A stretch of 54,979 nucleotides of DNA from the NCBI GenBank assembly GCA_903932425.1, contig CAIZGG010000277.1, positions 1 to 54,979 on the forward strand, read 5' to 3'. The translations under genes and the position numbers were made by a program. This DNA comes from an uncultured beta proteobacterium (GTDB lineage: Bacteria; Pseudomonadota; Gammaproteobacteria; Burkholderiales; Burkholderiaceae_B). This document shows, piece by piece, positions 3,537 through 52,428 of this stretch. Numbering within the stretch: position 1 is the stretch's first letter; each line of letters begins with the position of its first letter. The notes beneath the pieces are model-generated. The model was not told the DNA's origin, did not search any database, and was given only the letters and a program-made list of their open reading frames with translations.

Positions 3537-5096
3537 ATGCGAACAGAGTTTGATGCAGTTGTGATTGGTGGTGGGATTAATGGTGCGGGCATTGCGCGCG
3601 ACCTTGCCGGTAGAGGGTTGTCGGTGATGTTGTGCGAGCAGCACGATCTTGCCTCGCACACATCTTCAGCTTCGACCAAATTAATACACGGTGGTTTACG
3701 CTACCTTGAGTACTTTGAGTTTGGCCTAGTGCGTAAAGCCCTACAAGAACGTGAAGTACTACTTTGTAATGCACCGCATATCATGTGGCCTTTGCGTTTT
3801 GTGATGCCACACGACCGCGGCATGCGGCCCTCGTGGATGATTCGTTTAGGGTTGTTTCTGTACGATCATCTGGCTAAGCGCAACGTCTTACCTGCGTCGC
3901 AAGGCATCAATTTGCAGCGTCACCCCGCGGGCGAGGCGCTTAAACCTGTCTTCAGCAAAGGGTTTGAGTATTCGGACGGTTGGGTCGACGATGCCCGCCT
4001 TGTCGTGTTGAACGCGCTCGATGCGCACGAGCGCGGCGCTACGATTATGACCCAGACGGCTTGCGTAGACGCTATTCGCTCTAAAGATCACTGGACACTG
4101 ACCCTGCAATCAGGTTTTGATGCGTCGCAGACGCACGGCACAGAGCCAACTCCACTGAGGATTAAGGCGCGTGCATTAGTTAACGCTGCGGGTCCCTGGG
4201 CAGCCAAGTTTTTGCAGATGCAGGCGCATCGGTCTGGTACTCGCCCCTTGCGTTTGGTCAAGGGCAGTCATCTCGTCGTAAAAAAATTATTTACGCATGA
4301 CTTCGCTTATATTTTTCAAAATACTGATCGACGTATCAGTTTTGCGATCCCTTACGAGACTGACTTTACCTTGATCGGGACGACAGACGTCAATCATCAG
4401 GGTGAGATTGGTACGGTTGAGATGGACCAAGCGGAGTGCGCCTACATATGCGAGCAGGTCGGTCGTTATTTGCGTCAGACCATCACATCAGACGATGTGA
4501 TCTGGAGTTATTCAGGCGTGCGACCGCTACTTGACGATGCCTCGGGTAATCCCTCGGCAGTCACTCGCGACTATCGTTTGGATCTAGATACGGAAATGGC
4601 ACCTCTACTTTCAGTCTGGGGTGGAAAGATCACGACATATAGAAAATTAGCAGAGCAAGCCGCTGAGTTACTCGCACCGTTTTTATCTAATCAAGCCCCA
4701 GCTTGGACGGCTAAATCTCCGTTGCCTGGTGGTGATCTTGGTCCAAGCACCACGCTATCACAACACCCTGCTCAGGACTTTAACAATTTTGTTGCTGCAA
4801 CGCGCAACCGCTACGGCTGGTTACCAGAAAGTCTCTGTGTCCGGTATGCTCGAACTTATGGAACCCGTTTGAACGCCATGCTGACCGGCGCAACACGCCT
4901 CTCAGATTTAGGATCACTCATTGCTCCAGGGTTGTACGATGTAGAACTGCGGTACCTCGTCAAGCACGAATGGGCGCGGCAGTCTGACGATGTGCTGTGG
5001 CGACGCACCAAGTTAGGTTTGCATATAAACCCGAGCGAACGTCAGGCAGTCGAGCAATGGTTCAAGGACAAGGGAGTGCGCGAACAATGCGCTTAA
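3537..5096 (+). CDS. glpD: Aerobic glycerol-3-phosphate dehydrogenase GlpD
   Basis: 519 residues, the usual length. This membrane-associated flavoenzyme oxidises sn-glycerol 3-phosphate to dihydroxyacetone phosphate and passes electrons to quinone. The N-terminal Rossmann FAD motif is VVIGGGINGAGIARDLAGRG (residues about 9-28). It is followed by the family signatures SSASTKLIHGGLRYLEYFEF and GFEYSDGWVDDARLV, the substrate region IGTTDVNHQG, the FAD motif YSGVRPLLDD and the C-terminal GGKITTYRKLAEQA. The C-terminal domain (HEWARQSDDVLWRRTKLGL) is intact. The start ATG has no strong ribosome site but matches the family N-terminus. glpS begins inside its last codons, indicating translational coupling. 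Together with the downstream importer it channels glycerol, after phosphorylation by a kinase not seen here, into glycolysis. Confidence 0.96.
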   Translation: MRTEFDAVVIGGGINGAGIARDLAGRGLSVMLCEQHDLASHTSSASTKLIHGGLRYLEYFEFGLVRKALQEREVLLCNAPHIMWPLRFVMPHDRGMRPSWMIRLGLFLYDHLAKRNVLPASQGINLQRHPAGEALKPVFSKGFEYSDGWVDDARLVVLNALDAHERGATIMTQTACVDAIRSKDHWTLTLQSGFDASQTHGTEPTPLRIKARALVNAAGPWAAKFLQMQAHRSGTRPLRLVKGSHLVVKKLFTHDFAYIFQNTDRRISFAIPYETDFTLIGTTDVNHQGEIGTVEMDQAECAYICEQVGRYLRQTITSDDVIWSYSGVRPLLDDASGNPSAVTRDYRLDLDTEMAPLLSVWGGKITTYRKLAEQAAELLAPFLSNQAPAWTAKSPLPGGDLGPSTTLSQHPAQDFNNFVAATRNRYGWLPESLCVRYARTYGTRLNAMLTGATRLSDLGSLIAPGLYDVELRYLVKHEWARQSDDVLWRRTKLGLHINPSERQAVEQWFKDKGVREQCA

Positions 5097-6181
5097 AATT
5101 ACAACAAATCGAAAAACGGATGGGTAGCGAACAGCACCTTTATCCGTTGAGTCTTGAGCTTCAACCCAATACGGTAAACGTATTGCTTGGGGTGACGCTA
5201 GCTGGAAAAACGACCTTGATGAGATTGATGGCAGGCCTTGAACCGCCGTCATCCGGAAAGGTTTATGTCGATGATCACGACGTTACGGGCTTTTCGGTGC
5301 GCCAAAGAGATGTTGCGATGGTGTATCAGCAGTTTATCAACTATCCGTCTATGACGGTGTTCGACAATATTGCATCACCCTTACGGTTGCGTCGCGAAAA
5401 AAATATCGAAGCTCAAGTCAAAGCCTTGGCCTCGAAACTGCATATTGAGGCTTTTCTTAAACGACTTCCTGCTGAACTTTCAGGTGGTCAGCAACAGCGC
5501 GTTGCCTTGGCGCGAGCGTTGGCGAAACGCGCGCCCCTTATATTGCTAGATGAACCACTCGTAAATTTAGATTACAAGCTCAGAGAAGAGTTGCGAGACG
5601 AGCTCACCCACATTTTTTCTAACGGCGAGTCAACGGTGGTCTACGCTACCACTGAGCCGAGTGAGGCGCTTTTGTTGGGTGGCTACACTGCAGTCCTGGA
5701 TAGGGGGCATTTGTTGCAGTATGGGCCAACCCCCGAAGTCTTTCATCGTCCGGCATCTTTACAGGTTGCAAGGGCTTTTAGCGATCCTCCGATCAACTTG
5801 ATCGCAGCAAATGTGGCCCCAAGCGGATTTCAGCTAGACCTCGGTGATGGTTTGTTGTTTGGCTTAATCTCGTTTCAATCGCCAGGCGCCACCATGATGT
5901 TGGGGCTACGTGCCAACGCCTTGAGGGTGCAAGCGCGCGCAGGTGACCTCTCTTTAAAAGGTACGGTCGAGCTAGCCGAAATCTCGGGTTCTGATACTTT
6001 TTTACATGTTCGCACCGCGGTGGGCGGGGTAGTGGTTCAATTAACCGGTGTGCATTATTTTGAACTTGGTACGAGCATAGCTCTGCATTTCAATGCCGAT
6101 CATGCGTACGTGTTTGACGAGCATGGTGCTTTAAAGATTGCACCGCAGCAAGTGTCAGCGTCTTTCGAAAAGGTTGCCTGA
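5087..6181 (+). CDS. glpS: Glycerol ABC importer ATPase subunit GlpS
   Basis: 364 residues. Start ATG at 5087 overlaps the glpD stop. This is a MalK-like importer ATPase: Walker A GVTLAGKT (35-42) in the unusual TLAGK form typical of the GlpS branch, Q-loop Q81, signature LSGGQ (131-135), Walker B LILLDE (151-156), and a C-terminal OB-type regulatory domain (about 240-364). The switch histidine position is a threonine (YATTE, T189). It belongs to the glpSTPQUV glycerol transporter first described in Rhizobium leguminosarum. GlpS should form a heterodimer with GlpT on the inner face of the GlpPQ permease. Its own nucleotide site (with T189) is expected to be the weak one, whereas its intact LSGGQ completes the GlpT site. 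Confidence 0.92.
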   Translation: MRLKLQQIEKRMGSEQHLYPLSLELQPNTVNVLLGVTLAGKTTLMRLMAGLEPPSSGKVYVDDHDVTGFSVRQRDVAMVYQQFINYPSMTVFDNIASPLRLRREKNIEAQVKALASKLHIEAFLKRLPAELSGGQQQRVALARALAKRAPLILLDEPLVNLDYKLREELRDELTHIFSNGESTVVYATTEPSEALLLGGYTAVLDRGHLLQYGPTPEVFHRPASLQVARAFSDPPINLIAANVAPSGFQLDLGDGLLFGLISFQSPGATMMLGLRANALRVQARAGDLSLKGTVELAEISGSDTFLHVRTAVGGVVVQLTGVHYFELGTSIALHFNADHAYVFDEHGALKIAPQQVSASFEKVA

Positions 6182-21912: not shown

Positions 21913-22797
21913 ATGAAGAAACGTGATTTGTTTGGCTACGGGAATATCGCGCCAAGTGTAAAGTGGCCAAACCAAAAACGTGTTGCTGTATCTTTCGTCT
22001 TGAACTTTGAAGAGGGTGGCGAGTTCTCAATGGCAGACGGAGATCCCGTCAACGAGGCTGTATATGAAGTAATCGATCGACAAGCGCAGATCGATCCCTG
22101 TATAGATTCTCACTTTGAGTATGGCACGCGAGTCGGGTATTGGCGCATCGCCGAATTGTTCGAACGCTTTGGCGCTAACTTCACACTCAGTTCTTGTTGC
22201 CGCGCAGTTGAGCGTTCACCTTGGCTGGTGCAAGATGCTGTCAAGCGTGGTCACGAGATTTCTGCGCATGGTTATCGTTGGGAGCGCCACGTTGCGATGG
22301 ATGAGGCCACTGAACGTCAGTCGATCATGGCAACCATCAAAGCCATCGAGCAGGCTAGCGGCAAGCCACCAGTCGGTTGGCATACAAGGTCTAGCCCAAG
22401 CCCCAACACGCGTCGGATACTGTCCGAGCTAGGTTTTTTATACGACAGTGATGCGTATAACGACGACACGCCTTACTTCGTTGACGTTGGTGCAAAGAAG
22501 CATTTGGTCTTGCCCTATGCGTTTGACACGAATGATATGCACTTTCAGCATAGTGATCGCTTCACAACTGCAGAGCAATTTAGTCAATATGTTTGTGAGG
22601 CGTACGACTGGTTAGAACAAGAAGGGCAGGCCTGGCCGCGCATGTTGTCGATTGGATTGCATCTGCGCATGATTGCCCGGCCGGGTCGGATAGGGGCAGT
22701 GCAGCGCATACTGAGTCACCTTCAACAACGTGACTCGGCATGGATCACGACACGCAGCCAAATTGCTCAACATTGGCTGGCGCACAGCAAGCGTTGA
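21913..22797 (+). CDS. Polysaccharide deacetylase-fold protein (PuuE allantoinase-like)
   Basis: 294 residues. NodB-homology deacetylase fold resembling the metal-dependent PuuE branch, which includes a non-canonical allantoinase: start KKRDLFGYGNIAPSVKWPNQ, VAVSFVLNFEEGGEFSMADG, YGTRVGYWRIAELFERFGAN, GHEISAHGYRWERH and a closing GLHLRMIARPGRI. The expected metal and catalytic residues of the NodB core are visible as NFEEGG and SAHGYRW. Ribosome site is weak, but the ATG at 21913 fits the family N-terminus. It probably hydrolyses a C-N bond in a small amide or ureide rather than a polysaccharide. Substrate unproven. Confidence 0.8.
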   Translation: MKKRDLFGYGNIAPSVKWPNQKRVAVSFVLNFEEGGEFSMADGDPVNEAVYEVIDRQAQIDPCIDSHFEYGTRVGYWRIAELFERFGANFTLSSCCRAVERSPWLVQDAVKRGHEISAHGYRWERHVAMDEATERQSIMATIKAIEQASGKPPVGWHTRSSPSPNTRRILSELGFLYDSDAYNDDTPYFVDVGAKKHLVLPYAFDTNDMHFQHSDRFTTAEQFSQYVCEAYDWLEQEGQAWPRMLSIGLHLRMIARPGRIGAVQRILSHLQQRDSAWITTRSQIAQHWLAHSKR

Positions 22798-36487: not shown

Positions 36488-37492
36488 ATGTGTTTGCAGA
36501 TTAATCATGATTGTTCATATCGGGTGCTGAGTTTGAAATCTTCGATCCTTATTCGTTGGCTATGCATCTTGACGTTAGGCATGCTTGGCGCGAATGCTCT
36601 AGCAGACTCGTCTGAAAATTTTCCTAATAAAGCCATTCGTATCGTCGTGCCTTTTGCCGCGGGCGGGGGCGGTGATTTTATTGCGCGTTCCTGGGCCGAT
36701 AAGTTTTCAGAAACCATCAAGCAACCGGTGATCATAGAGAATCGCGGCGGCGGGAACACCGTGGTCGGCACAGACGTTGTGGCCAAGGCTGCGCCTGATG
36801 GCTATACCTTGTTGCTCGTCGGGGCCAGTATTGCGACCAATCCGGCCTTGATCGAAAAGTTGCCCTACAAAACTCCAGACGACTTTACGCCAATTGGTAC
36901 CGTGATCACCTATGCCATGGGTTTTGCGGCTCGTGCTAACTTGCCTGCTAATGACGTGCAAGAACTGCTGGCTCTCATCAAGGCAAAGGGACCGTTGAGT
37001 ATTGCGACCTCTGGCGATGGTTCGGCGACTGCACTAGCGAATGAATTGTTTAAAGACGCAACGGGCGCCAAGCTGATGGCGGTTCCGTACAAAGGCGCTG
37101 GTCCAGCAGCTATTGACGTAGCAAGTGGTCATGTTGATTTGCTTTTTACTGGGATGTCACAGCTCAAACCGCACCTGGATACGGGTCGGGTCAAGCTTCT
37201 CGCAACCTCAGGATCAAATCGTTTAGCCTCGGCACCAGACGTTCGAACGATTGCCGAGCAAGGTGTCAAGGATTTTGAAGCGGTTGTGTGGTGGGGGATT
37301 CTTGCTCCTGCTAAAACCCCTACTGTCGTCGTGAACAAACTGAATCAAGCACTTGCCGTGAGTTTGAATCATCCTGAGGTAATGAAACGCTTGGCAGTTA
37401 TTGACGGCGAGGTTAGATTGTCGTCGCCTCAGGCGTTTGACGCCTTATTGAAAGACGAGATTGCGCGTTGGGCAAAATTGTATAAACCTTAA
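36488..37492 (+). CDS. Bug (TctC-type) periplasmic receptor 4
   Basis: 334 residues. Signal peptide ends NALADS. A TTG about 15 codons downstream is a possible alternative start nearer the signal sequence. Motifs: IRIVVPFAAGGGGDFIARSW, NRGGGNTVVGTDVVAKAAPD, LPYKTPDDFTPIG and VPYKGAGPAAIDVASG. It diverges from the acetamidase gene (123-bp gap), making an amide or related ligand a reasonable guess. Its stop interlocks with that of the MFS gene on the other strand. Confidence 0.92.
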   Translation: MCLQINHDCSYRVLSLKSSILIRWLCILTLGMLGANALADSSENFPNKAIRIVVPFAAGGGGDFIARSWADKFSETIKQPVIIENRGGGNTVVGTDVVAKAAPDGYTLLLVGASIATNPALIEKLPYKTPDDFTPIGTVITYAMGFAARANLPANDVQELLALIKAKGPLSIATSGDGSATALANELFKDATGAKLMAVPYKGAGPAAIDVASGHVDLLFTGMSQLKPHLDTGRVKLLATSGSNRLASAPDVRTIAEQGVKDFEAVVWWGILAPAKTPTVVVNKLNQALAVSLNHPEVMKRLAVIDGEVRLSSPQAFDALLKDEIARWAKLYKP

Positions 37493-41053: not shown

Positions 41054-42055
41054 TTAATCAGCGCGGATATTGTTGCTTTGAACGAGCGCGCGCCACTGTT
41101 TGATTTCGCCTTGCAAGAATGTGGTGAACTGCTCGGGCGTATTGCCAACGGGTTCGATGCCCATTGACTCCATGCGCGCTTTAACGGCAGAGTCTTTGGT
41201 GGCCTCGTTTACAGCTTTTGCGAGCCGTTCAATAATGTTGGTTGGCGTGCCTTTAGCGACAAAGAAGCCATTCCATTCGACTACTCTAAAACCGGCGTAA
41301 CCGGCCTCTTCAAACGTTGGCACATCAGGCAATGCTTCCATTCTGGTCGTGCCTGTTGTTGCGAGTGCGCGCAGTTTGCCAGATTTTAAATGTTGCAGGG
41401 CGGTGATTGGATTTGAAAAATATCCAGCCAGCCTTCCCGCTAAGACATCAGCAATTGCTTGCGCGCCGCCTTTGTAAGGGACGTGTGTCCATTTGATGCC
41501 AGCATCGCGCTGCAGTAACTCAGCCGCTAAATGCGCAGCCCCACCAGCGCCGTATGAGCCGTAGTCAAGTTTATTTGGATTGGCTTTAGCGAAATCAACC
41601 AAGTCTTTTAAAGTTTTAAAAGGGCTTGAGGCGGGTATCACCAAGATCAGCGGCATGTTGATCGCCTGTGACACTGGGATCATGTCTTTAACGGGATCAA
41701 AGGGCAGGTCACGCATCACTGCGTTCACTGCATACGGAAACGTGTCATAAAACATGGTGTAGCCGTCGGTGGGCGCTTGTAAAACCGCCATCGCGCCTAC
41801 CACGCCACTGGCGCCCGGCCTATTTTCGATGATGATGGGCTGACCCAAAATGGCAGACATAGGCTGCGCCAGCATTCTTGAGTTTGTGTCAGCGCCACCG
41901 CCTGGGGTGTAGGGTACGACGAGTCGTATAGGTTTGTCTGGATAGCTGGCCTGCGCGTGCACTGGGCTGTGCAAACTTATAACGGCTAAGGCCAGGCTAA
42001 CCGCGCTGAGGCTCAAGTTAATTGAGCGGCGAATGATCCGAGTGACTATTGTCAT
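41054..42055 (-). CDS. Bug (TctC-type) periplasmic receptor 5
   Basis: 333 residues from the ATG at 42055. Signal peptide to VHAQ. Motifs: IRLVVPYTPGGGADTNSRML, IENRPGASGVVGAMAVLQAP, LPFDPVKDMIPV and VPYKGGAQAIADVLAGRL. Lies 39 bp downstream of the GntR regulator gene on the same strand, so it is probably the last gene of the apionate-type operon rather than an unrelated gene. It would then provide a second receptor beside the TRAP one. Confidence 0.92.
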   Translation of the reverse strand: MTIVTRIIRRSINLSLSAVSLALAVISLHSPVHAQASYPDKPIRLVVPYTPGGGADTNSRMLAQPMSAILGQPIIIENRPGASGVVGAMAVLQAPTDGYTMFYDTFPYAVNAVMRDLPFDPVKDMIPVSQAINMPLILVIPASSPFKTLKDLVDFAKANPNKLDYGSYGAGGAAHLAAELLQRDAGIKWTHVPYKGGAQAIADVLAGRLAGYFSNPITALQHLKSGKLRALATTGTTRMEALPDVPTFEEAGYAGFRVVEWNGFFVAKGTPTNIIERLAKAVNEATKDSAVKARMESMGIEPVGNTPEQFTTFLQGEIKQWRALVQSNNIRAD

Positions 42056-42094
42056 GATTGTCTCGTGTTGAGTTAAAACCAAGTTTCTCTAATT

Positions 42095-42808
42095 TTACTG
42101 ACGTCTGACAGCTGTTTTGTAGAGTTCGTCGGCGCGGTTCAGGTGATTGCGCATGGCCTGCGCCGCGCTCTCGGCATCATGGGCAGCAATGGCTTCGATA
42201 ATTTTTTGATGCTCGGCGAGTGTCAGGCTTTCTGCGCCAGGCGCGTGAACGATTGATTGGTAATAAGCGCTCGCCCAGCCAAACAAGGCCTCAACGATGG
42301 CTGGGAATATTGGATTGCAACTGATCCGAGCGATTTCACGATGAAACAGCATGTCGTGCTTCATGAACAGTTCGCTATTTTGTAGCGCAGCGCGTTGCTC
42401 TTCGTGCCGAAGGTATAACTGTTTGATATCTTGGTCGGTTGCTTTTTCTGCAGCGAGTCGTACCATACCGGTTTCTAAAAAAACGCGGGCCTCTTTTACA
42501 TGCTCAAGCGTCTCGGGTTGAATGCGTAATAAATGGCGAGCGCCTTCTGCAATCTGGTCGATTAACAGGCTTGCTGTCGGCGTTGCGACGCGCGCACGCT
42601 CGCCATGAGAAATTTCTACAATCCCTGAGCGCGCCAAGTCTTGAAGCGCTTCGCGTACGGCGACGCGCCCAACGCCATACGTTTCCATGAGCTCGCGCTC
42701 AGAGGGTAATTGATCGCCCGGCTTAAGTTCTGCGCGCTCAATGCGCTGCATGAGTCGATCTAGAACCTCTTGATAGAGCTTTCGTCTTTGAATGGGTTCG
42801 CTTGTCAT
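42095..42808 (-). CDS. GntR-family regulator (FadR subfamily)
   Basis: 237 residues. N-terminal GntR winged HTH: LYQEVLDRLMQRIERAELKP, then LPSERELMETYGVGRVAVRE (residues about 10-60). The C-terminal FCD effector domain is helical (EARVFLETGMVRLAAEK, then AEHQKIIEAIAAHDAESAAQ with conserved metal-binding type His residues). It is encoded within the catabolic operon, after the kinase gene, so it likely controls this cluster in response to the imported sugar acid. A candidate operator (GTATTAGGTAATAC) sits upstream of dctP. Confidence 0.9.
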   Translation of the reverse strand: MTSEPIQRRKLYQEVLDRLMQRIERAELKPGDQLPSERELMETYGVGRVAVREALQDLARSGIVEISHGERARVATPTASLLIDQIAEGARHLLRIQPETLEHVKEARVFLETGMVRLAAEKATDQDIKQLYLRHEEQRAALQNSELFMKHDMLFHREIARISCNPIFPAIVEALFGWASAYYQSIVHAPGAESLTLAEHQKIIEAIAAHDAESAAQAMRNHLNRADELYKTAVRRQ

Positions 42809-42823
42809 GGCATCGTTCTCTTG

Positions 42824-44200
42824 CTACAGCTTACGACCTGCGCGGATCTCACCATAAAAGCTCGGCCCGCCCATTTGTCCGCCCTTCAGAGCGATTTCCA
42901 GTCCGTCGCGCTGAGAGTTGTCAGACCATGCGCGACATAGGGGAACGCCAGGTGTGATACCTGCACTTAAGGTTAACGCTCGAATCCCTAAGTGGCCGGC
43001 CACCGCCCCAGAACTATCGCCCCCGGCGACAACGATCCGTTTGACTGACGAGCTATCCAAAACTCTGCGCATAATCTCAGCTAAAACTTCCCCGATTTTT
43101 TGAGCCGCTTGCATGCGATTCAAATGCGCAGCCTGCGCCGTTTCATCAAAATTTTTCACCGCGGGATCATCTGGACCTTCGGCTGAAAAAATAAGAGGTG
43201 AAATATTTTTTGCTAGAGCCGCGATCGCCAAGGTCGCTAAGCGGTCAATTTCTATTTGGCATTGCTCTTGAGCAAGAGCCAGCGAAATCTCTAAACGTAA
43301 GACGCAAAAGCCATTGGCACGCGCCCACTTGATTTGTTCGCCGCTCATCGGCGAGCAACTGCCACTGACGACCGCGATGCAATCTACCGCGCGTGCCGTC
43401 GGTAGGTATTGCGTGCTCGGGATCATGCCTTGGTGGCGCCAATAGGCAGTTAAGGCGTACTGTAATCCTGAAGACGAGGCGCTAAACACTTGTTTGCCGC
43501 GATTTTCCCAAAGGAGGCGACCCGCTTCGATCTGAGTGGGTAGGTCGGTCACATCAATCATGATGACGGGTTGATCACTGCCCATCAACGTCTCGAGCTT
43601 GTGTTGCCCTTGGCTTTCAGCGATATCGGTAACATCGATGAGTGCGATGCGCCTTGATGTTTGTTTCGCAAGATGAACCGTCAGGTCGCCTTCGTTCATG
43701 GGGGTCACTGGGTGACGCGACATCGTGGGGTGTCGATCAATGCGGTGAACGACTCCGTTTGCTGCGGCAAATAGATGTCCAAATACTTGATAACGTTTTA
43801 GGCGTGGTGCTCCGACAATCATCGGCGACCACTGTGCCTGCGTGACGTTCATGCCGATATCGATTGCTTGCCCAATCGACCCAATCGCGGCAGAGGAGTC
43901 AAAGGTTGAGCACACTTTATAGTGCAGAACAGGGGCACCAATGTCGGCGAGGCGCTGAAAGATCGCCGGCAAATGCTGTTGCATCCATTCAGGCGTTTGG
44001 CTGCGCGACAGGCCTGCGAGCCCGACACAACGCATGTGTTTAAAATGCTCTAAGTCTGACGGGCGAGGTAATTGCAAAAACAAAACCGTGTCGATACCCG
44101 CAGCCGTGAAGGCTTCCATCACATCGGTTGAGCCCGTAAAGTCGTCGCCGTAATAGGTGAGCAAGGGCCCGTCTGGCAATGTCTGCTTGATGTCAGCCAC
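42824..44200 (-). CDS. oiaK: Four-carbon acid sugar kinase family protein, probable 3-oxo-isoapionate kinase
   Basis: 458 residues from a GTG at 44200; a TTG at 44212 overlapping the RuBisCO-like gene is the alternative. DUF1537 kinase: N-terminal domain YYGDDFTGSTDVMEAF (substrate-binding D-D and ATP side), MPVPLHYKVCSTFDSS-like (here VLHYKVCSTFDSSAAIGS), and a C-terminal nucleotide domain with VVAGGDSSGAVAGHLGIRAL. This family phosphorylates C4 acids such as threonate and erythronate, and in D-apionate catabolism the OiaK members phosphorylate 3-oxo-isoapionate. The neighbouring RuBisCO-like gene and apnO-like gene make the OiaK role the best guess. The family assignment is firm; the substrate is inference. 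Confidence 0.78.
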   Translation of the reverse strand: MADIKQTLPDGPLLTYYGDDFTGSTDVMEAFTAAGIDTVLFLQLPRPSDLEHFKHMRCVGLAGLSRSQTPEWMQQHLPAIFQRLADIGAPVLHYKVCSTFDSSAAIGSIGQAIDIGMNVTQAQWSPMIVGAPRLKRYQVFGHLFAAANGVVHRIDRHPTMSRHPVTPMNEGDLTVHLAKQTSRRIALIDVTDIAESQGQHKLETLMGSDQPVIMIDVTDLPTQIEAGRLLWENRGKQVFSASSSGLQYALTAYWRHQGMIPSTQYLPTARAVDCIAVVSGSCSPMSGEQIKWARANGFCVLRLEISLALAQEQCQIEIDRLATLAIAALAKNISPLIFSAEGPDDPAVKNFDETAQAAHLNRMQAAQKIGEVLAEIMRRVLDSSSVKRIVVAGGDSSGAVAGHLGIRALTLSAGITPGVPLCRAWSDNSQRDGLEIALKGGQMGGPSFYGEIRAGRKL

Positions 44201-44205
44201 AGTCG

Positions 44206-45468
44206 TTACCAAAAGGTCAGGGCACGCTTTAACTCAGGGTGCTCTTGACTATAGTGGGAAAGAGTTGTGCCCGCTTCAGCGGCTTCATAGGCTTGTCGTA
44301 AGGCTCGGACTCCGGCGGCGACACCATCAGGATGGCCAAAGATACCCCCACCCGCTGTTACGATTAAATCCGAATGGCCGATCGCTTTGATCGTATCGTG
44401 CGCCTGCAGGCCAGTTTGCGCTGAGCTAAAAACCGGCACGGCGGTCATCGGCGCCTGTGCATACAGAGGGATACCCACAGAGCGCGCAGCAGCAATGACA
44501 GACTCATCGCTCTCGCTAAATTTGTTGCGCAACCCATTGACATGCAAATGATCAACCCCTGCAAGACGCCAGATTTTTTGCCACGCCGCAAACTCCCAAC
44601 CCAACGCAGGACTTCGGTTTAAATAGCCCCAGCCTGCACGGTGTGCGTGAATGGGCAGTTGGCTGTGCTTTCTGAAAGCTGACATACCTGCTAAGCCAAT
44701 CGAATTCAGGCAGACCATCACGCACGTGCCCTTGTGTGCAAGTACAAAGTCGTGCCGGTGTCTCATTTGATCAAGGTCACCCGTGATGTTAAAGGCGACC
44801 ATGACTTTTTTTCCTGACTGATCGGCCGCACGATTAACGATTTGCATGACGCGTTCAACGCGCTCTTCAAACGGACAGTAGGTTCCGTCAGCTTGCAACT
44901 CGTCGTCTTTGATGAAATCGATGTCGCCCGCGACAAGCATTTGCACTTGTTCTGCAGTTTCAACCGCATTTAAACCGACACTGGGTTTGATGATCGTGCC
45001 GATAAATGGTCCCGTTTGTTTTCCACTCAGACGCCGCGTGCCCGGCATGCCAAACGCTGGTCCCGGGTATGCCTGCGCAAAGGCTTCAGGCAATTCAAGG
45101 TCAAGCAATCTGAGTCCAGATACCTGGGCTAACTCAAATAAATTACCGGCAACGGTTGAGAACACACTTGGCAGGCACGGCCCGATATTGCTCAGGGGCC
45201 ACGAAAGTTTCAGTAGGCAACGCGTGTAAACGTTGGATCGTTTGCCCCCAGGCAGGCTGGGCTGCGTCGAGGTATCTAAAATTGTTAACGACTCAACCTG
45301 CGCGCCTGAGCGCTTTTTTAATGCAGGTGTTTCGGCGGCAAGTTTTAAAAAGGTACCACTTGATTGCTCGCCTGCGATGATCTCAGCGGCTCGGGCTGGA
45401 TCATCGCCTGTTTCTAACCAATACGTTGCATAAAAGCGCTCATCCACGTTATTTGTAGCCCAACGCAT
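44206..45468 (-). CDS. RuBisCO-like protein, probable 3-oxo-isoapionate 4-phosphate transcarboxylase/hydrolase or decarboxylase
   Basis: 420 residues. RuBisCO large-chain fold, not a true RuBisCO. Conserved residues: K161 in GTIIKPSVGL, the carbamylation Lys and metal ligands K187-D-D-E190 (DFIKDDELQ), and H276-R-A in IHAHRAGWGY; the loop 6 region reads VNGLRNKFSES. RuBisCO-like proteins of D-apionate catabolism either decarboxylate 3-oxo-isoapionate 4-phosphate or cleave it with water to 3-phosphoglycerate and glycolate. No tetrulose phosphate isomerase genes follow here, which favours the cleavage branch, but sequence alone does not decide. The start ATG overlaps dctM by 20 bp; a GTG at 45447 directly after the dctM stop is an alternative. 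Start uncertain. Confidence 0.85.
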   Translation of the reverse strand: MRWATNNVDERFYATYWLETGDDPARAAEIIAGEQSSGTFLKLAAETPALKKRSGAQVESLTILDTSTQPSLPGGKRSNVYTRCLLKLSWPLSNIGPCLPSVFSTVAGNLFELAQVSGLRLLDLELPEAFAQAYPGPAFGMPGTRRLSGKQTGPFIGTIIKPSVGLNAVETAEQVQMLVAGDIDFIKDDELQADGTYCPFEERVERVMQIVNRAADQSGKKVMVAFNITGDLDQMRHRHDFVLAHKGTCVMVCLNSIGLAGMSAFRKHSQLPIHAHRAGWGYLNRSPALGWEFAAWQKIWRLAGVDHLHVNGLRNKFSESDESVIAAARSVGIPLYAQAPMTAVPVFSSAQTGLQAHDTIKAIGHSDLIVTAGGGIFGHPDGVAAGVRALRQAYEAAEAGTTLSHYSQEHPELKRALTFW

Positions 45469-46744
45469 GTGGCAACCAGTTGCTTAAGGCTGGGACAAAC
45501 GTTAACAGCATCAAAACGATCCCATGCGCCCATAAAAACGGTTTGAGCTCTCGGGTCAAGTCTGACAGAGGTACTTTCGACACGTTTGAGGTCACGAATA
45601 ACAAGCCGCCCACAGGAGGGGTAATCATCCCCAAAGTGAGGTTGTAGATCACGATCATCGCGAAGTGAATCGGCTCGATTCCCACACTGGCTGCGACAGG
45701 CGCCAAAATCGGCACGAGTACCATCACCCCGGGAAGAGGTTCGATGAAAATGCCAAAGAGCAATAAGAAAATATTGACCACAATCAGAAAGGTCCAGGCA
45801 TTCAAGTGCATGCCTGCGATCCAGCTCGCAACCGCTTGCGGTACGCCTTCTATCGTTAAGATCCAGGCAAAAGAAGCCGACATCCCGATGATCAATAGCA
45901 CAGAGGCTGTCAGTAGCGCAGAACGAAACAAAATGTTTGGCACTGCTTTCCACTCAAGGGTGCGATAGACATACTTGCCGCACAACAAAGCATAAAACAC
46001 TGCGACCACAGAGGCCTCGGTGGGCGTAAACCAGCCTGCGCGCATCCCACCTAAAATAATCACTGGCAATAAGATTGCTGGTAGAGCCTTCCAACTTGTC
46101 AGCCACATTTCTTTGCGGGTTGGATACTCATTATCGCCCTTGTAGTTACGCTGCTTGGATACGTACCAATTCACGATGCACATTGCGACGGCAATGAGTA
46201 CGCCGGGGATCAGGCCCGCGACAAAGAGTGCCCCGACTGAGACCTTATCGTCTGCCAGCGCATAGATGATCATGATGATTGAGGGGGGAATAATCGGCCC
46301 CACAATCGCAGTCGACGCGGTCAACGCTGCAGCGTAAGAGCGCGAGTAACCGGCCTTGTCCATCATGCGAATGAGCATCGATCCTGGGCCTGCGGCATCC
46401 GCTAGAGCCGAGCCAGAGATCCCAGAGAAAAAAGTCAGTGAAACGACGTTGGTGTAGCCCAAACCGCCGCGCTTGTGACCAACGAATTGACCCGCAAATT
46501 TCAACAAGACTTCGGTGAGTGATCCGCCACTCATTAATTCTGCGGCCAGAATAAAGAAGGGCACCGCCATCAGTGGAAAACTGTCGATGCCGGTGAACGT
46601 TTCTTTGAGTAAGACCAGCAGCGGAAAATTAGCCCCTGAAATCAGCAGGGCTGTGATGGTAGATAAGCCAAGCGCAAAAGCGACAGGAACACCGATCGCT
46701 AAATAGACACAGGCGGCAATAAGTAGGACGACGCTGGCGCTCAT
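45449..46744 (-). CDS. dctM: TRAP transporter large permease DctM
   Basis: 431 residues with about twelve helices, typical of DctM. Motifs: FPLMAVPFFILAAELMSGGS, GGLGYTNVVSLTFFSGISG and GPIIPPSIIMIIYALADDK, plus the C-terminal FGIFIEPLPGVMVLVPILAP and LTLGMITPPVGGLLFVTSNV. It is the ion-driven membrane subunit that moves the carboxylate from DctP. ATGA overlap with dctQ. Likely imports the sugar acid processed by the neighbouring enzymes. Confidence 0.94.
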   Translation of the reverse strand: MSASVVLLIAACVYLAIGVPVAFALGLSTITALLISGANFPLLVLLKETFTGIDSFPLMAVPFFILAAELMSGGSLTEVLLKFAGQFVGHKRGGLGYTNVVSLTFFSGISGSALADAAGPGSMLIRMMDKAGYSRSYAAALTASTAIVGPIIPPSIIMIIYALADDKVSVGALFVAGLIPGVLIAVAMCIVNWYVSKQRNYKGDNEYPTRKEMWLTSWKALPAILLPVIILGGMRAGWFTPTEASVVAVFYALLCGKYVYRTLEWKAVPNILFRSALLTASVLLIIGMSASFAWILTIEGVPQAVASWIAGMHLNAWTFLIVVNIFLLLFGIFIEPLPGVMVLVPILAPVAASVGIEPIHFAMIVIYNLTLGMITPPVGGLLFVTSNVSKVPLSDLTRELKPFLWAHGIVLMLLTFVPALSNWLPHALGYK

Positions 46745-47253
46745 AGTGAGGCACTCGCAGTGGCGTCAAAGTGCGCATCTGAGGGGAACGATCTGGTCAG
46801 AACGTAGTCTTTGACGATCAGTAACCAATGGATCAAGGCCATGGCAGCCCCAATCGGTAGGCCAGCGTAGATGATGGCAATCGAAATTTGGGTGGCTGGT
46901 GTTTGCTGATACTGGGTGCGATCCATGTATTCAAGGCCATACCAGGTAAAGAAAGCAAATAGTCCGATGACCAGCAGCGCAATGATCACGCGGATGCCGA
47001 TCGCCACGCCACGTGGTACTGAGTCTTGTAGATTTTCAACAGCGATATGCCCACCATAACGCAGTACGGGGCCACAGCCTAAAAAGGTCAACCAAATCAT
47101 GAGATGGCGCGCGACTTCTTCGGCCCATTCGAGCGAGATATTGGTGGTGTAGCGCAGCACGACGTTGGCAAAAATGATGATCGACATCACCGCCATGATG
47201 AGGATTAAAAGCCATTTATTGATGGCCAAAAAATAGCTTTCAAATGTTTTCAT
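46741..47253 (-). CDS. dctQ: TRAP transporter small permease DctQ
   Basis: 170 residues with four hydrophobic helices (first WLLILIMAVMSIIIFANVVL). The signature RYTTNISLEWAEEVARHLMIW and the GGHIAVENL stretch are typical of the DctQ family. The ATG at 47253 is chosen over a longer frame because it fits the family. Overlaps dctM by ATGA. It works with DctM and DctP. Confidence 0.92.
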   Translation of the reverse strand: MKTFESYFLAINKWLLILIMAVMSIIIFANVVLRYTTNISLEWAEEVARHLMIWLTFLGCGPVLRYGGHIAVENLQDSVPRGVAIGIRVIIALLVIGLFAFFTWYGLEYMDRTQYQQTPATQISIAIIYAGLPIGAAMALIHWLLIVKDYVLTRSFPSDAHFDATASASL

Positions 47254-47325
47254 AGGGATCACTGCTTGATTTGAAATAAAAAAATGGTGGCACACTGAGG
47301 CGCGCCACCCTTTTTGCAGAGAGAC

Positions 47326-48306
47326 TTATTTGAAGTCGCGAATTTTTTGAATATTCTCTGCGCCAAACTCTTTTGCGTACGCGGCGTTGGCTGGCTCAAG
47401 TGCTTTGACGAAGGCAGCTGCATCGACTTTACGCACAACAATCATGCCATCGGCCTCTAGCTGAGCGATGCCGTTTGCATCATCCTCACTGACCTTTTTA
47501 CGTTGTGCAATATTTCCAACTTTAGCAGCGTCGTAAAAGACTTTTTTGTCTGCTTCGCTCAGCTTGTTCATGAAGCGCGGTGAGGTCAAAAACAGGGCAG
47601 GTGAATACACGTGCGCAGTGAGTGACAGATATTTTTGTACTTGTGAAAATTTTGACGATAAGATAATCGGGATAGGATTTTCTTGGCCGTCAACAATGCC
47701 TTGTTGCAGCGCGCCAAAGACCTCAGGGAAGGCCATTGGTGTTGGGCGGATACCAAAGGTGCGATAGCCATCCATGTGTACTTTGTTTTCCATCGTGCGC
47801 ATTTTTAATCCAGCGGTATCCGCGGGCGTGACGATTGGATGCTTATTGTTCGTCATATGACGAAAGCCATTTTCGCTCCACGTTAAGGCAATCAGGCCTT
47901 TAGCAGGAAATTTTTTCAATAATTCTTGACCGCCGGGGCCGTCGAGATAGGCGCGCGCGTGGTCGTAGTCGCGAAACAAGAAAGGGATGTCGACGATTTT
48001 TACTTCAGGAACAAAGTTGCCAACCGGGCCAGTCGAAACGTCAGTGATGTCAAGCGTGCCAAGTTGCACCGCTTCGATCATTTCACGCTCACCGCCCACT
48101 GAACCGGCAGGAAACTGCTGGCATTTATAGCGCCCCTGGGTGCCTTTCTCGATCTCATCACAGAAGGCCGTGACGCCCATGCCATACGATCCGTTGGCGG
48201 CTGAGGTATAGCCGATTTTCACAATCGTTTGTGCACTCGCTGAACCGATTGCGAGCCATGTTGCAGCAGCAATTGAGGTCAGGCGGATGGTTTGTTTGAA
48301 GTTCAT
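47326..48306 (-). CDS. dctP: TRAP transporter substrate-binding protein DctP
   Basis: 326 residues. GAGGGAAAC ribosome site before the ATG at 48306. Signal peptide to SASAQ. DctP motifs: IKIGYTSAANG-like (here VKIGYTSAANGSYGM), the selectivity-helix pattern LKMRTMENKVHMDGYRTFGI and VDGQENPIPIILSSKFSQVQ, including the arginine (R in LKMRTME) that usually contacts a carboxylate. It captures the acid in the periplasm. First gene of the operon on this side, 166 bp after the apnO-like gene stop. Confidence 0.94.
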   Translation of the reverse strand: MNFKQTIRLTSIAAATWLAIGSASAQTIVKIGYTSAANGSYGMGVTAFCDEIEKGTQGRYKCQQFPAGSVGGEREMIEAVQLGTLDITDVSTGPVGNFVPEVKIVDIPFLFRDYDHARAYLDGPGGQELLKKFPAKGLIALTWSENGFRHMTNNKHPIVTPADTAGLKMRTMENKVHMDGYRTFGIRPTPMAFPEVFGALQQGIVDGQENPIPIILSSKFSQVQKYLSLTAHVYSPALFLTSPRFMNKLSEADKKVFYDAAKVGNIAQRKKVSEDDANGIAQLEADGMIVVRKVDAAAFVKALEPANAAYAKEFGAENIQKIRDFK

Positions 48307-48472
48307 GTTTCCCTCTGAAATGAAGTGGTAAGGTTCTTGTTGTTTGACTTCGTAATAATTTGTACGCAATGCTACTAGACATTAGCGGTTGTGGGGTATT
48401 AGGTAATACGCCAACTAAGCTGACGCCCGATTTTAGGTGACCGCGTCAACCGCTGTCCGGTGTCACCCGCTG
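48307..48472 (-). promoter_or_regulatory. Upstream region of the TRAP operon with candidate GntR operator
   Basis: Contains a perfect palindrome GTATTAGGTAATAC (48396-48409) about 90 bp upstream of dctP, suiting a FadR-type dimer. Next to it, a 17-bp motif is tandemly duplicated (TCAACCGCTGTCCGGTG at 48446-48462 and TCACCCGCTGTCAGGTG at 48463-48479), overlapping the end of the apnO-like gene. Promoter elements are not identified with confidence. Confidence 0.45.
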
Positions 48473-49300
48473 TCAGGTGATACGTTCGATGCTTTCGGCG
48501 ATCTCTTTGTTGTCAAAGACCTTTTTCCAATCGTCGCGCATCAGTCGGGGTTTTCCAAAGGTAATCGCCTTGTTACAGGCATCCGAGAACTGCCCAGGAA
48601 TTTGCTTAAAAATAACCGCCGACAAGATCGTCATGTGGCCGAGCAGAAAATCCCTCGCCGCTTCGGCAGGTACACCCCTGGAAACGACTTCATCCATCGC
48701 CTCTCGCATGACGTCCAAGAGTGTCGCACAGACTGTTTCTGAAAGACCGGGCTCGAGCAGCGCCATTTGCTCGACTGTGACGCGATATGACCGCAAAATG
48801 GGCTGGTAGATCGTTTTGGCAATAGCTTCGCCTAACTCAAACGCTTCCTCTGGGCCTTGCATCAGGGCGCTCACGATGGATTGGGGCGCCAGTACTCCGC
48901 CAAAGTAATCGGGTGCCCCGGCCGTATGAACCTCAGGGGCAAAGATGTTGGGGTGGCAAGGGTGTGCCACGAAGTAGGTCAGGTCTGGACGTTTGGGCAG
49001 GTGGCCGGCAAAAGGTGCTGCGGCATCAAGCGTCATCACCATCGTGCCTGCTTGAAGCTGCGGGGCGATTTCGGCGGCAAGGCGTCCGATAAAGCTGTCG
49101 GGCACAGCCAAAATCACGACATCGACTTTGCTCAGAGCGTCTTCCAAGGCAACGCAAGACACGCCTAATTCGTTTTTCAGCCGATCTTTGCCAACTGCGC
49201 TGACTTCTACGTGCCTGACGTCGTACTCTGAACCCATCAGGTTTTTGGATAGGCGCACGCCCATCTTGCCGCCAGCACCAAACAATGCAATCGAAGTCAC
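48473..49300 (-). CDS. apnO: Probable D-apionate oxidoisomerase
   Basis: 275 residues. The GTG at 49300 is preferred, with AAGGG upstream; a TTG at 49309 is possible. NAD-binding Rossmann fold start IALFGAGGKMGVRLSKNL, then DVVILAVPDSFIG, MTLDAAAPFAGHLPKRPDLT and FVAHPCHPNIF, matching proteins annotated as phosphogluconate dehydrogenase C-terminal domain and the ApnO family as I recall it. ApnO oxidises D-apionate and migrates its hydroxymethyl group to form 3-oxo-isoapionate. The kinase and RuBisCO-like genes downstream act on that product. The functional call rests on cluster logic and family resemblance, not on an alignment. Confidence 0.75.
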   Translation of the reverse strand: MTSIALFGAGGKMGVRLSKNLMGSEYDVRHVEVSAVGKDRLKNELGVSCVALEDALSKVDVVILAVPDSFIGRLAAEIAPQLQAGTMVMTLDAAAPFAGHLPKRPDLTYFVAHPCHPNIFAPEVHTAGAPDYFGGVLAPQSIVSALMQGPEEAFELGEAIAKTIYQPILRSYRVTVEQMALLEPGLSETVCATLLDVMREAMDEVVSRGVPAEAARDFLLGHMTILSAVIFKQIPGQFSDACNKAITFGKPRLMRDDWKKVFDNKEIAESIERIT

Positions 49301-49387
49301 GATGATCAACCCTTATCTGTAATGAGCGGCAATGGTATGATGAGTTGACCAGTTCAGGCTACTAGGGCTTGTACCTAATTAAATTAC

Positions 49388-50263
49388 TTAGCTTCTTCGC
49401 TTAATAATAGAGACGAGTTCGGGTAATAGTGCTTGCGGATCAGCCTCCTGACAGGCTTGGGTCAACGAGTTTTTCACGGCCTGAGCGACCGTGTGATCGA
49501 CTTTCATATCTTCAGCCATTTGGTTGTAATAACTTAGATCTTTCAAGCTGTTAGCCAAGCTAAAACGCAGGCTTGAGGTGTCGCCTGCTGTTAAGTAGGG
49601 TTTAAGTCGTTCGAGCGGAGCACCCCAGCCGCCACCCATCGCCAACACCTCAATGAAGGTTTGCGGGTCGATGCCGGATGACAGCGCGCAGGCAGCGGCC
49701 TCGGCCATCAGGGTGACCGAGCCAAGCGACACATAATTGTGCAAAAGCTTCATCCGATGCCCGGCCCCAATCGGCCCTGCATGAACGATGTTCTCGGCAA
49801 AGCATGACAAGAGTGGTTTGCACTGCTCAAAGAGCTGAGCGTCGCCACCGACCAAGAGATTCAGCCGACCTTCAGCTGCCTCTTTAGGCGTTCGGGTCAT
49901 CGGGGCGTCTAAAAAATGACATCCGTAATCAATGACGAATTTTGCAATGCGCTCAGTGGAGGTCGGAATCGAGGTGGAGCAGTCAATGACGATGCTGCCG
50001 GGAGCAAGCCCTTGCAGGACACCGTCTTGACCAAATAGCACGGCCTCAACTTGAGGCGTACCCGTCACGCACAAAATCATGATGTTTGAATGCTCGGCCA
50101 GTGCTCTGGGCGTTTGAAAGGTTGTCACCCCCTGAGCGATGAGTGCGTCAAGCGGTTGGTTGCCTTCGTGCGCCAGCACCGACAGAGAGTGGCCATGCTT
50201 GACCAAATTTGTCGCAATACCATGACCCATCATGCCAATGCCAATCATTCCGATCTTGTTCAT
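49388..50263 (-). CDS. NAD(P)-dependent oxidoreductase (3-hydroxyisobutyrate dehydrogenase family)
   Basis: 291 residues. N-terminal cofactor motif IGMIGIGMMGHGIATNLVKH (GxGxxG), a hydroxyacid site DAPMTRTPKEAAEGRL (the usual D-A-P-V-S-G position), and the catalytic lysine in HRMKLLHNYVSLGS. The family oxidises beta-hydroxyacids. It could prepare a sugar acid for the pathway, reduce tartronate semialdehyde, or be incidental. Same strand as the apnO-like gene, 87 bp upstream of its start. Weakly supported role. Confidence 0.88.
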   Translation of the reverse strand: MNKIGMIGIGMMGHGIATNLVKHGHSLSVLAHEGNQPLDALIAQGVTTFQTPRALAEHSNIMILCVTGTPQVEAVLFGQDGVLQGLAPGSIVIDCSTSIPTSTERIAKFVIDYGCHFLDAPMTRTPKEAAEGRLNLLVGGDAQLFEQCKPLLSCFAENIVHAGPIGAGHRMKLLHNYVSLGSVTLMAEAAACALSSGIDPQTFIEVLAMGGGWGAPLERLKPYLTAGDTSSLRFSLANSLKDLSYYNQMAEDMKVDHTVAQAVKNSLTQACQEADPQALLPELVSIIKRRS

Positions 50264-51296: not shown

Positions 51297-51441
51297 TTTT
51301 TAATATATTTGATATGTAAAAAAAATTATATATTATCGGGTGCTTTACACATAAACTTGTTCAGTTTTGACGCTTTGGACTGCAGAACCTAAATGAGTGG
51401 CATTTGCGCTCAGAATAATGACGTCAACGGAGAGACACGAC
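51297..51441. promoter_or_regulatory. LysR/Bug divergent promoter region
   Basis: AT-rich. TAATATAT (51301-51308) and ATATATTA (51328-51335) form a perfect 8-bp inverted repeat around a 19-base spacer. This could hold LysR binding sites close to the lysR start, though LysR sites normally have shorter spacing. No clear -10/-35 chosen. Confidence 0.3.
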
Positions 51442-52428
51442 ATGCAAACGGTAAAGCGCAGTGTTTTGACTTTGGTTGCTTGCTTTGGACTGGTGCTGAC
51501 GGGCGCCGTAATGGGCCAGGGGACATACCCTGACCGAGCCATTAAGATGATCGTGGCTTGGCCAGCGGGTGGAGGCACAGATAATGTTGCAAGGTTAATT
51601 GCTAAATTCTTGGGGGAGCGGCTCAAGCAACCAATCGTTGTTGAAAATAGATCGGGCGCGAGCGGTGTCATCGGAACGGAGTACGCAGCGAAGGCTGCCC
51701 CAGATGGTTACACGATTCAATACACGGTGGCCGATTCGCATTCGATTAATCCGCATGTTTTTAAGAATGTGTCGTTTGATGCGTTGAAAGATTTTATTCC
51801 AGTCGCCGTAGTTGGAAGCATGCCCAATGTGCTAGTGGCCAATAACTCAGTGCCGGCAAGCAATATGGCCGATTTTTTGAAGCTTGCGCGCGCAGAACCA
51901 GATCGTTTTACTTATGCGTCTTGGGGTATCGCGAGTGGAGCACACATCCGCACCGAGGCATTCAACAAAGAGGCAAAAATTAAACTGCGACATATTCCCT
52001 ATCAAGGGTCGGGGCCTGCATTTGCTGCAATAGTCGGCCAACAGGTCGACGTCATGATGGTGCCCTTGGGTTTGGCTTATGGGAGTGCCAAGGCAGGCAA
52101 GGTAAAGATCCTGGGAGTGGATACTCGCGATCGAGTCGCAGAGGCGCCTGAAGTCCCGACCTTTACAGAGATGGGAATCCCGGTCAGTTTGGCATTTTGG
52201 CAAGGCATTTTGGTGCCAGCTAAAACACCCTCTGACGTGGTGGTGAGGCTCAATAAAGAAATGAATGAAATATTGGCCGATCCTAAGGTGAAGCAAGCCT
52301 TGCTGGGCGTTGGTGTCAACGTGCGATCCAACGATTTGCAGTCCTTAGCCCAATTGGATTTCTACATGAGAGATGAATATCGGCGCTGGGGATCGGTCAT
52401 CAAAGATGCACAAATTATAGAAAAATGA
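51442..52428 (+). CDS. Bug (TctC-type) periplasmic receptor 6
   Basis: 328 residues. ATG at 51442 after GGAGAG. Signal peptide ends AVMGQG. Motifs: IKMIVAWPAGGGTDNVARLI, VENRSGASGVIGTEYAAKAA, VSFDALKDFIPVA and IPYQGSGPAFAAIVGQ. First gene of a plus-strand series with a serine hydrolase and a Rieske oxygenase, controlled in all likelihood by the divergent LysR. It probably delivers the substrate of those enzymes. Confidence 0.93.
   Translation: MQTVKRSVLTLVACFGLVLTGAVMGQGTYPDRAIKMIVAWPAGGGTDNVARLIAKFLGERLKQPIVVENRSGASGVIGTEYAAKAAPDGYTIQYTVADSHSINPHVFKNVSFDALKDFIPVAVVGSMPNVLVANNSVPASNMADFLKLARAEPDRFTYASWGIASGAHIRTEAFNKEAKIKLRHIPYQGSGPAFAAIVGQQVDVMMVPLGLAYGSAKAGKVKILGVDTRDRVAEAPEVPTFTEMGIPVSLAFWQGILVPAKTPSDVVVRLNKEMNEILADPKVKQALLGVGVNVRSNDLQSLAQLDFYMRDEYRRWGSVIKDAQIIEK

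Follow-up and report, generated by a model that had tools for sequence, protein, structure and literature searches.

Gene content of the cluster

The stretch of DNA analysed here, referred to as the window, is a contig of 54,979 nucleotides (CAIZGG010000277.1) from a metagenome-assembled genome (MAG) of an uncultured beta proteobacterium (assembly GCA_903932425.1; 4.07 Mb in 508 contigs, 84% complete, 6% contamination). Positions 42095–49309 hold seven genes, all of them intact open reading frames (ORFs) in one direction on the minus strand (Table 1): an ApnO-like oxidoisomerase, the DctP, DctQ and DctM genes of a tripartite ATP-independent periplasmic (TRAP) transporter, a RuBisCO-like protein (RLP), the kinase OiaK and a GntR-type regulator. 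A preliminary description of the window had reported this set on one strand and had taken it for a catabolic cluster for D-apionate, the acid form of a sugar of plant cell walls. The gene set is borne out by the intact ORFs and by family matches far above chance. The interpretation as an apionate cluster is supported in its main lines; which substrate the transporter carries is the part that we infer. Overall, we put the probability at about 0.73 that the genes form one operon that imports and degrades D-apionate via DctPQM, ApnO, OiaK and an RLP of the OiaT type, under control of the NanR-type regulator.

The ORFs of DctM and RLP overlap by 20 bases and those of RLP and OiaK by 7 bases, which is compatible with a single transcript. 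The TRAP transporter is complete, with DctP, DctQ and DctM recognized together by NCBIfam and Pfam matches; 18 window proteins were scanned in total (8 with NCBIfam and Pfam, 10 with Pfam). The whole MAG gave a single RLP match and a single PGDH_C match, both within this cluster. The same cluster, with proteins 85–96% identical, is found on a contig of an uncultured Alcaligenaceae bacterium (locus L033; the other loci are numbered likewise), and the organism of the window is probably related to this family.

Table 1. Features of the putative D-apionate cluster and their family matches.
Feature	Position	Strand	Match and remarks
ApnO-like D-apionate oxidoisomerase	48473..49309	-	likely GTG start 49300; PF16896 239.7 bits
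DctP, solute-binding protein of TRAP transporter	47326..48369	-	likely ATG start 48306; TIGR00787 241.8 bits
DctQ small permease	46741..47295	-	PF04290 103.1 bits
DctM large permease	45449..46744	-	TIGR00786 422.5 bits
RLP, OiaT type by tree placement	44206..45468	-	PF00016 237.2 bits
OiaK, 3-oxo-isoapionate kinase	42824..44212	-	NF042436 743.8 bits, cut-off 700
GntR/FCD regulator, NanR subfamily	42095..42808	-	NF003011 304.4 bits, cut-off 260
Reductase of the 3-hydroxyisobutyrate dehydrogenase (HIBADH) family, upstream of candidate operator	49388..50263	-	TIGR01505 166.9 bits, below cut-off 340.75
Candidate operator TGGTCAACTCATCATACCA	49333..49351	-	operon head, 23 bases before ApnO-like ORF

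Assignment of the enzymes and the proposed pathway

The oxidoreductase encoded at 48473 had been proposed to belong with known ApnO, and trees, identities and models, used in place of a similarity network, agree with this. It is 73–78% identical to genes from Cupriavidus, Paraburkholderia, Caballeronia, Herbaspirillum and Xanthobacter that are co-located with the same RLP and OiaK, and some of these loci have apiose genes adjacent. No ApnO model occurred among its NCBIfam matches; the best solved relative was 5t57 (463.7 bits). Judged by these comparisons, the protein is ApnO-like and close to those of apionate clusters. The kinase at 42824, described as OiaK-like before, passes the equivalog cut-off of the OiaK model (Table 1), and it is the only kinase of the OiaK superfamily among the 18 scanned proteins. 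A second kinase of this superfamily is encoded in the MAG on contig C380 (145.1 bits to OiaK). The lack of an apiose dehydrogenase or lactonase in the cluster would fit the degradation of another branched or straight sugar acid, with a likeness to apionate genes by family only. We regard this as highly improbable, since OiaK passes the equivalog cut-off and loci that do have apiose modules carry ApnO and RLP proteins that are 73–75% and 67–70% identical, respectively, to those of the window.

The subtype of the RLP was assessed in a quick tree of 93 rows (midpoint root, no bootstrap), for which the best 80 of 126 relatives in genome contigs were used. The window RLP falls within a group of 41 rows (SH-aLRT 100), together with proteins from Limnohabitans, Paraburkholderia, Caballeronia, Herbaspirillum, Cupriavidus necator N-1 and Variovorax and three proteins from Xanthobacter. 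OiaX proteins form a long branch in another part of the tree. The best PDB match, 3nwr, belongs to yet another group and sits outside that of the window on a long branch, and was not used to assign the subtype for that reason. The window RLP is 68% identical to a Xanthobacter RLP and 42% identical to OiaX of Rhizobium acidisoli; congeneric Xanthobacter RLPs served as proxy for the characterised X. autotrophicus protein. A review that cites Carter et al. (2018) reports two activities of RLPs on 3-oxo-isoapionate-4-phosphate: decarboxylase for the A. radiobacter K84 protein and transcarboxylase/hydrolase for that of X. autotrophicus (PMC6302742).

The best NCBIfam match of the window RLP is the OiaX model NF042437, which would suit an OiaX-type decarboxylase with L-erythrulose 1-phosphate as product. 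Its score of 424.8 bits, similar to that of one Xanthobacter RLP (431.8), is below the curated cut-off of 700, while two proteins named OiaX by the Prokaryotic Genome Annotation Pipeline pass as positive controls (775.7 and 780.6), and the assignment as OiaX was rejected. The window RLP also lies outside the group of the R. acidisoli OiaX, and the triose-phosphate-isomerase and RpiB-like genes found with oiaX in that species have no relatives among the window ORFs, so a decarboxylase is very unlikely. Because of the grouping with Xanthobacter, the OiaX-model scores and the published activities, the window RLP is most likely of the OiaT type, a 3-oxo-isoapionate-4-phosphate transcarboxylase/hydrolase. 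Its KP, KDDE and HRA blocks align with those of the RuBisCO chain 6hun, with conservation of the lysine, acidic and histidine residues that we take to form the metal and catalytic site of RuBisCO. In C. pinatubonensis the genes eno, pyk, gpmA and glycerate kinase lie near ApnO, which is consistent with 3-phosphoglycerate as product; the RLP of this organism is only 51% identical and falls outside the window group.

In the pathway that we propose, D-apionate would be taken up from the periplasm by DctPQM, and oxidised and isomerised by ApnO to 3-oxo-isoapionate. OiaK would phosphorylate 3-oxo-isoapionate at C4 to the 4-phosphate, of which the OiaT-type RLP would move the carboxyl group and hydrolyse the product to 3-phosphoglycerate and glycolate. 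The former would enter glycolysis and the latter would probably be used by glycolate oxidase; a GlcD-like protein on contig C422, beside other GlcD-family matches, makes glycolate oxidation plausible. As long as substrate is absent, the operon is probably kept repressed by the NanR-type GntR protein, acting at a 19-bp site ahead of ApnO. The enzyme names and the product pair of 3-phosphoglycerate and glycolate reportedly stem from work by Carter and colleagues in 2018. Gene content, families, tree placement, synteny and the 19-bp site can be read directly from the sequences; we infer each reaction from tree placement or an equivalog model, as well as the import substrate and the regulation. 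The enzymes and the pathway would be known and ordinary ones, combined with a modestly new import variant and a candidate operator.

The statement in the preliminary description that apiose dehydrogenase and lactonase genes are missing holds: no relative of ApsD, ApnL or the apiose-binding protein was found among window ORFs of at least 90 amino acids, and the window does not contain a full D-apiose catabolic cluster (dehydrogenase, lactonase and apiose importer). A search of the MAG with ApnL found nothing, versus matches in three of the four other records searched. For ApsD, the best match in the MAG covered two thirds of the query at 26% identity, versus 63–100% identity in the three matching records. 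As the MAG is only 84% complete, missing apiose genes are not proof of absence. A strain in which genes for lactonase, dehydrogenase, oxidoisomerase, kinase and decarboxylase occur together is reported to grow on D-apiose (PMC11747546).

Importer exchange among related loci

Importers were counted in 37 loci of the RLP group of the window (the window and 36 others; four further rows of the group were left out). The 37 stretches vary in length, and some end at contig ends. TRAP and major facilitator superfamily (MFS) transporters alternate in otherwise similar gene sets: the importer differs and the enzymes are shared. DctPQM lies between ApnO and RLP in 5 of the 37 loci (the window, L033, L036, L037 and L163), DctP alone takes this place in two (L034 and L035), and in 28 an MFS gene directly precedes ApnO in the same orientation; in the remaining two (L050 and L059) neither TRAP nor MFS was found within the available stretch. 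The import variant is not unique to this genome, and many of the MFS-form loci likewise have no apiose genes adjacent. The DctP genes of L034 (8988–9995) and L035 (9018–9995) may encode orphan binding proteins or have their permease genes elsewhere, as no DctQ or DctM was detected in these stretches. The MFS permease scores 275.2 bits with the D-galactonate transporter model TIGR00893, below the cut-off of 395.

Of the 30 non-TRAP loci, 7 have an apiose module next to the RLP (L039, L040, L050, L058, L059, L062 and L168, the last of these by the separate ApnL and ApsD searches), versus none of the 7 loci with TRAP or DctP only. A relative of the HIBADH-family reductase of the window occurs in 6 of these 7 loci and in 0 of the 30 others; it lies about 10 kb away in L035 and after GntR in L163. 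In L036 (Limnohabitans parvus) a gene of the isocitrate/isopropylmalate-dehydrogenase family (4985–6145) is inserted between the HIBADH-like gene and ApnO, and L037 has an ORF of 362 amino acids at the equivalent place. Further variation in the group concerns GntR, for which seven of the 37 loci gave no match (L049, L050, L054, L057, L061, L063 and L064); RLP, which lies apart from ApnO-OiaK in L058, L059 and L168; and L050, which has no ApnO and no OiaK within its stretch. OiaK was above cut-off in 5 of 399 genomes of the order, including that of the window.

Candidate operator and regulator

The 19-bp near-palindrome TGGTNNACTCATCAYACCA (49333–49351) occurs once in the window. Its TGGT-N11-ACCA pattern was first recognized by visual inspection of the window and L033 sequences, and then tested on the other loci; a FadR-type consensus had given nothing shared upstream of the genes. 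The exact site is present in 17 of the 37 group loci (the window and 16 of the 36 others), once per locus. Its distance from the presumed start of the leading gene of the operon is at most some 115 bases; this gene is ApnO in L033–L035 and the MFS gene in 13 of the 28 MFS loci. Elsewhere it was found in 2 of 50 other RLP loci, 0 of 20 DctP or further loci and 0 of 360 Markov-shuffled sequences, and among the 399 genomes the window site was the only exact one. As the site was defined from these loci, the counts there are partly circular; the scan of the 399 genomes is more independent, and so is the location of the site at the head of the operon. Allowing one mismatch in the MAG yielded one further site, on C378, which is no more than in the reversed control. 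With a looser score the site was recognized in further group loci, for instance L036, L037 and those of Herbaspirillum, and R. acidisoli has close matches ahead of both oiaX and ApnO.

The GntR protein passes the cut-off of the NanR subfamily (Table 1), and the 19-bp site is a candidate target of this NanR-type regulator, with the GntR/FCD protein as the likely local repressor. Both the TRAP and the MFS layout have this rare site at the head of the operon, which supports the notion that the TRAP genes belong to the apionate regulon. In five Paraburkholderia loci a looser match (15–16 of 19 positions) lies near the GntR gene (L038 at ~12713, L039 and L040 at ~12686, L042 at ~12688 and L062 at ~12687), which perhaps reflects autoregulation. 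In C. pinatubonensis the gene annotated as 3-keto-5-aminohexanoate cleavage protein has an 18/19 match upstream (L167, ~22024–22042) and may thus also belong to the regulon.

Ligand of the TRAP transporter

The nearest solved relatives of the window DctP are 4pdd (69% identical), 4pdh, 4p9k and 4nq8. To our knowledge these are not apionate proteins; presumably their ligands are erythronate or pantoate, no paper naming two of these codes having been found. The DctP tree places six apionate DctPs in one clade (99/94), with the Variovorax DctP outside. A study on another TRAP binding protein reports, in a passage that does not name the above PDB entries, that structures close to that protein have pantoate or erythronate bound. 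In 4P47 numbering, the ligand is contacted by an acidic residue at 76, Arg152, Arg173, an aromatic residue at 196 and Asn213 (PMC11668362). With a constant offset of 18, applied purely as a shift of the 4P47 numbering, all five residue types are present in the window DctP (E94, R170, R191, F214 and N231), and they recur in all 24 aligned DctP rows (E94, R170, R191, F/W214 and N231). Positions 110–111 are Asp-Val in the window and L033, Asn-Thr in the Limnohabitans-type DctPs of L034–L037, in L143–L147 and in 4pdd, and Ile-Thr in Variovorax.

A number of observations weigh against a single operon for import and degradation of D-apionate. In the DctP tree 4pdd groups with L143 and L144. The L143 cluster encodes a 3-oxo-tetronate kinase (613.6 bits, cut-off 350) and an L-threonate dehydrogenase (444.3 bits, cut-off 350), pointing to erythronate or threonate as the ligand of the branch of 4pdd, L143 and L144. 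The DctM tree contains two mixed pairs, L036 with L145 and L163 with L146, so that apionate and other TRAP transporters are interleaved; L145 (87%) and L146 (81%) are the closest DctMs outside apionate clusters, they lie near a gene for electron transfer flavoprotein-ubiquinone oxidoreductase (ETF-QO), and no apionate gene was detected within 18 kb. This interleaving weakens ligand assignment by homology, and the case rests on gene context. At position 61 of DctP, 22 of the 24 rows have His, and Ser is confined to the window and L033. In the other four genomes with OiaK above cut-off RLP is present too, but no such TRAP, MFS or 19-bp site was found within 18 kb. The exact site is missing in 20 of the 37 group loci; loose matches did not rise above the shuffled level in seven (L049, L050, L059, L061, L063, L064 and L163), nor did they in L159–L162, L145 and L146. 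Finally, the GlcD-like protein on C422 (527.5 bits) is below its cut-off of 567.9.

Taken at face value, the solved relatives with their presumed ligands, the 4pdd-like DctP of L143, the interleaved DctM tree and the second kinase on C380 would suit a TRAP transporter for D-erythronate, L-threonate or pantoate, next to enzymes that degrade D-apionate supplied by another carrier or made inside the cell. The position of the TRAP genes between ApnO and RLP, downstream of a rare site, with relatives that have an MFS gene at the operon head, argues against this, as does OiaK being the sole kinase of its superfamily among the scanned window proteins; we consider a different TRAP substrate unlikely, although less so than the alternatives for the enzymes. 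For D-apionate as the substrate, a more specific scenario is that an erythronate/pantoate-type binding protein was re-tuned to a branched sugar acid (Ser61 and Asp110-Val111, next to the conserved arginines that bind the carboxylate). A D-apionate importer dependent on a binding protein would then replace the MFS permease, in an operon that serves to scavenge the acid only and has its operator in common with the MFS form. This scenario is put forward tentatively and is rather doubtful. Residues 61 and 110–111 differ among the DctPs of apionate loci, and the change is thus not required for the gene setting.

A single clade of apionate DctMs was rejected (approximately unbiased test, p-AU 2.6e-14; tree with a long-branch warning), and a single clade of apionate DctPs was weakly rejected (p-AU 0.027). 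The DctM tree requires three or more switches between apionate and other TRAPs, and either repeated gain or gain followed by loss could account for them. The FAD protein near the TRAP genes of L145 and L146 was discarded as a pathway enzyme, as it is ETF-QO.

Relation to known clusters

The D-apionate pathway with an OiaT-type RLP is reported for X. autotrophicus. Three Xanthobacter loci have ApnO-like, RLP and OiaK genes in the same order as the window; the RLP used for comparison is that of a congener. Unlike the window, with DctPQM between ApnO and RLP, these loci have their ApnO preceded by an MFS gene, and GntR was not detected in them. The MFS clusters of Paraburkholderia, Caballeronia, Herbaspirillum and C. 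necator N-1 (pBB1) share the enzymes and mostly GntR with the window, but an MFS permease takes the place of TRAP and an apiose module is adjacent in some. The plasmid-borne OiaX clusters of R. acidisoli FH23 and Shinella sp. H4-D48 have ApnO, a kinase of the DUF1537 type, RLP and a NanR-type regulator in common with the window; they differ in having ApsD-like and ApnL-like genes and OiaX, and R. acidisoli also has a ribose-type ATP-binding cassette importer. In Shinella a TRAP transporter lies beside ApnO, as in the window, but its DctP is only 37% identical; such an unrelated transporter suggests that TRAP and apionate genes have been joined more than once. The otn cluster with the 4pdd-like TRAP (L143, with L144 similar in layout) has a DctP 68–69% identical to that of the window, whereas its DctQ and DctM are only 30–40% identical and no RLP or ApnO was detected; its OtnC-like protein is below cut-off (220.6 versus 250 bits).

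If D-apionate is indeed the ligand, a substrate would be assigned to a TRAP branch of which we take the solved relatives to be linked to erythronate or pantoate, and the importer of the D-apionate pathway would be interchangeable. It would also suggest that D-apionate as such is available as a free nutrient and that its users include freshwater Limnohabitans; were the binding protein re-tuned as outlined above, the cells would live on D-apionate released by others and not on apiose. For some of the Burkholderiales, and perhaps for Rhizobiaceae, the 19-bp site could then serve as a cheap regulon marker.

Two minor features of the region were noted. A palindrome, GTATTACCTAATAC, lies between ApnO and DctP (48396–48409) and is also present in L033. 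Three periplasmic receptors of the TctC family are encoded around the cluster, at 36488–37492, 41054–42082 and 51397–52428.

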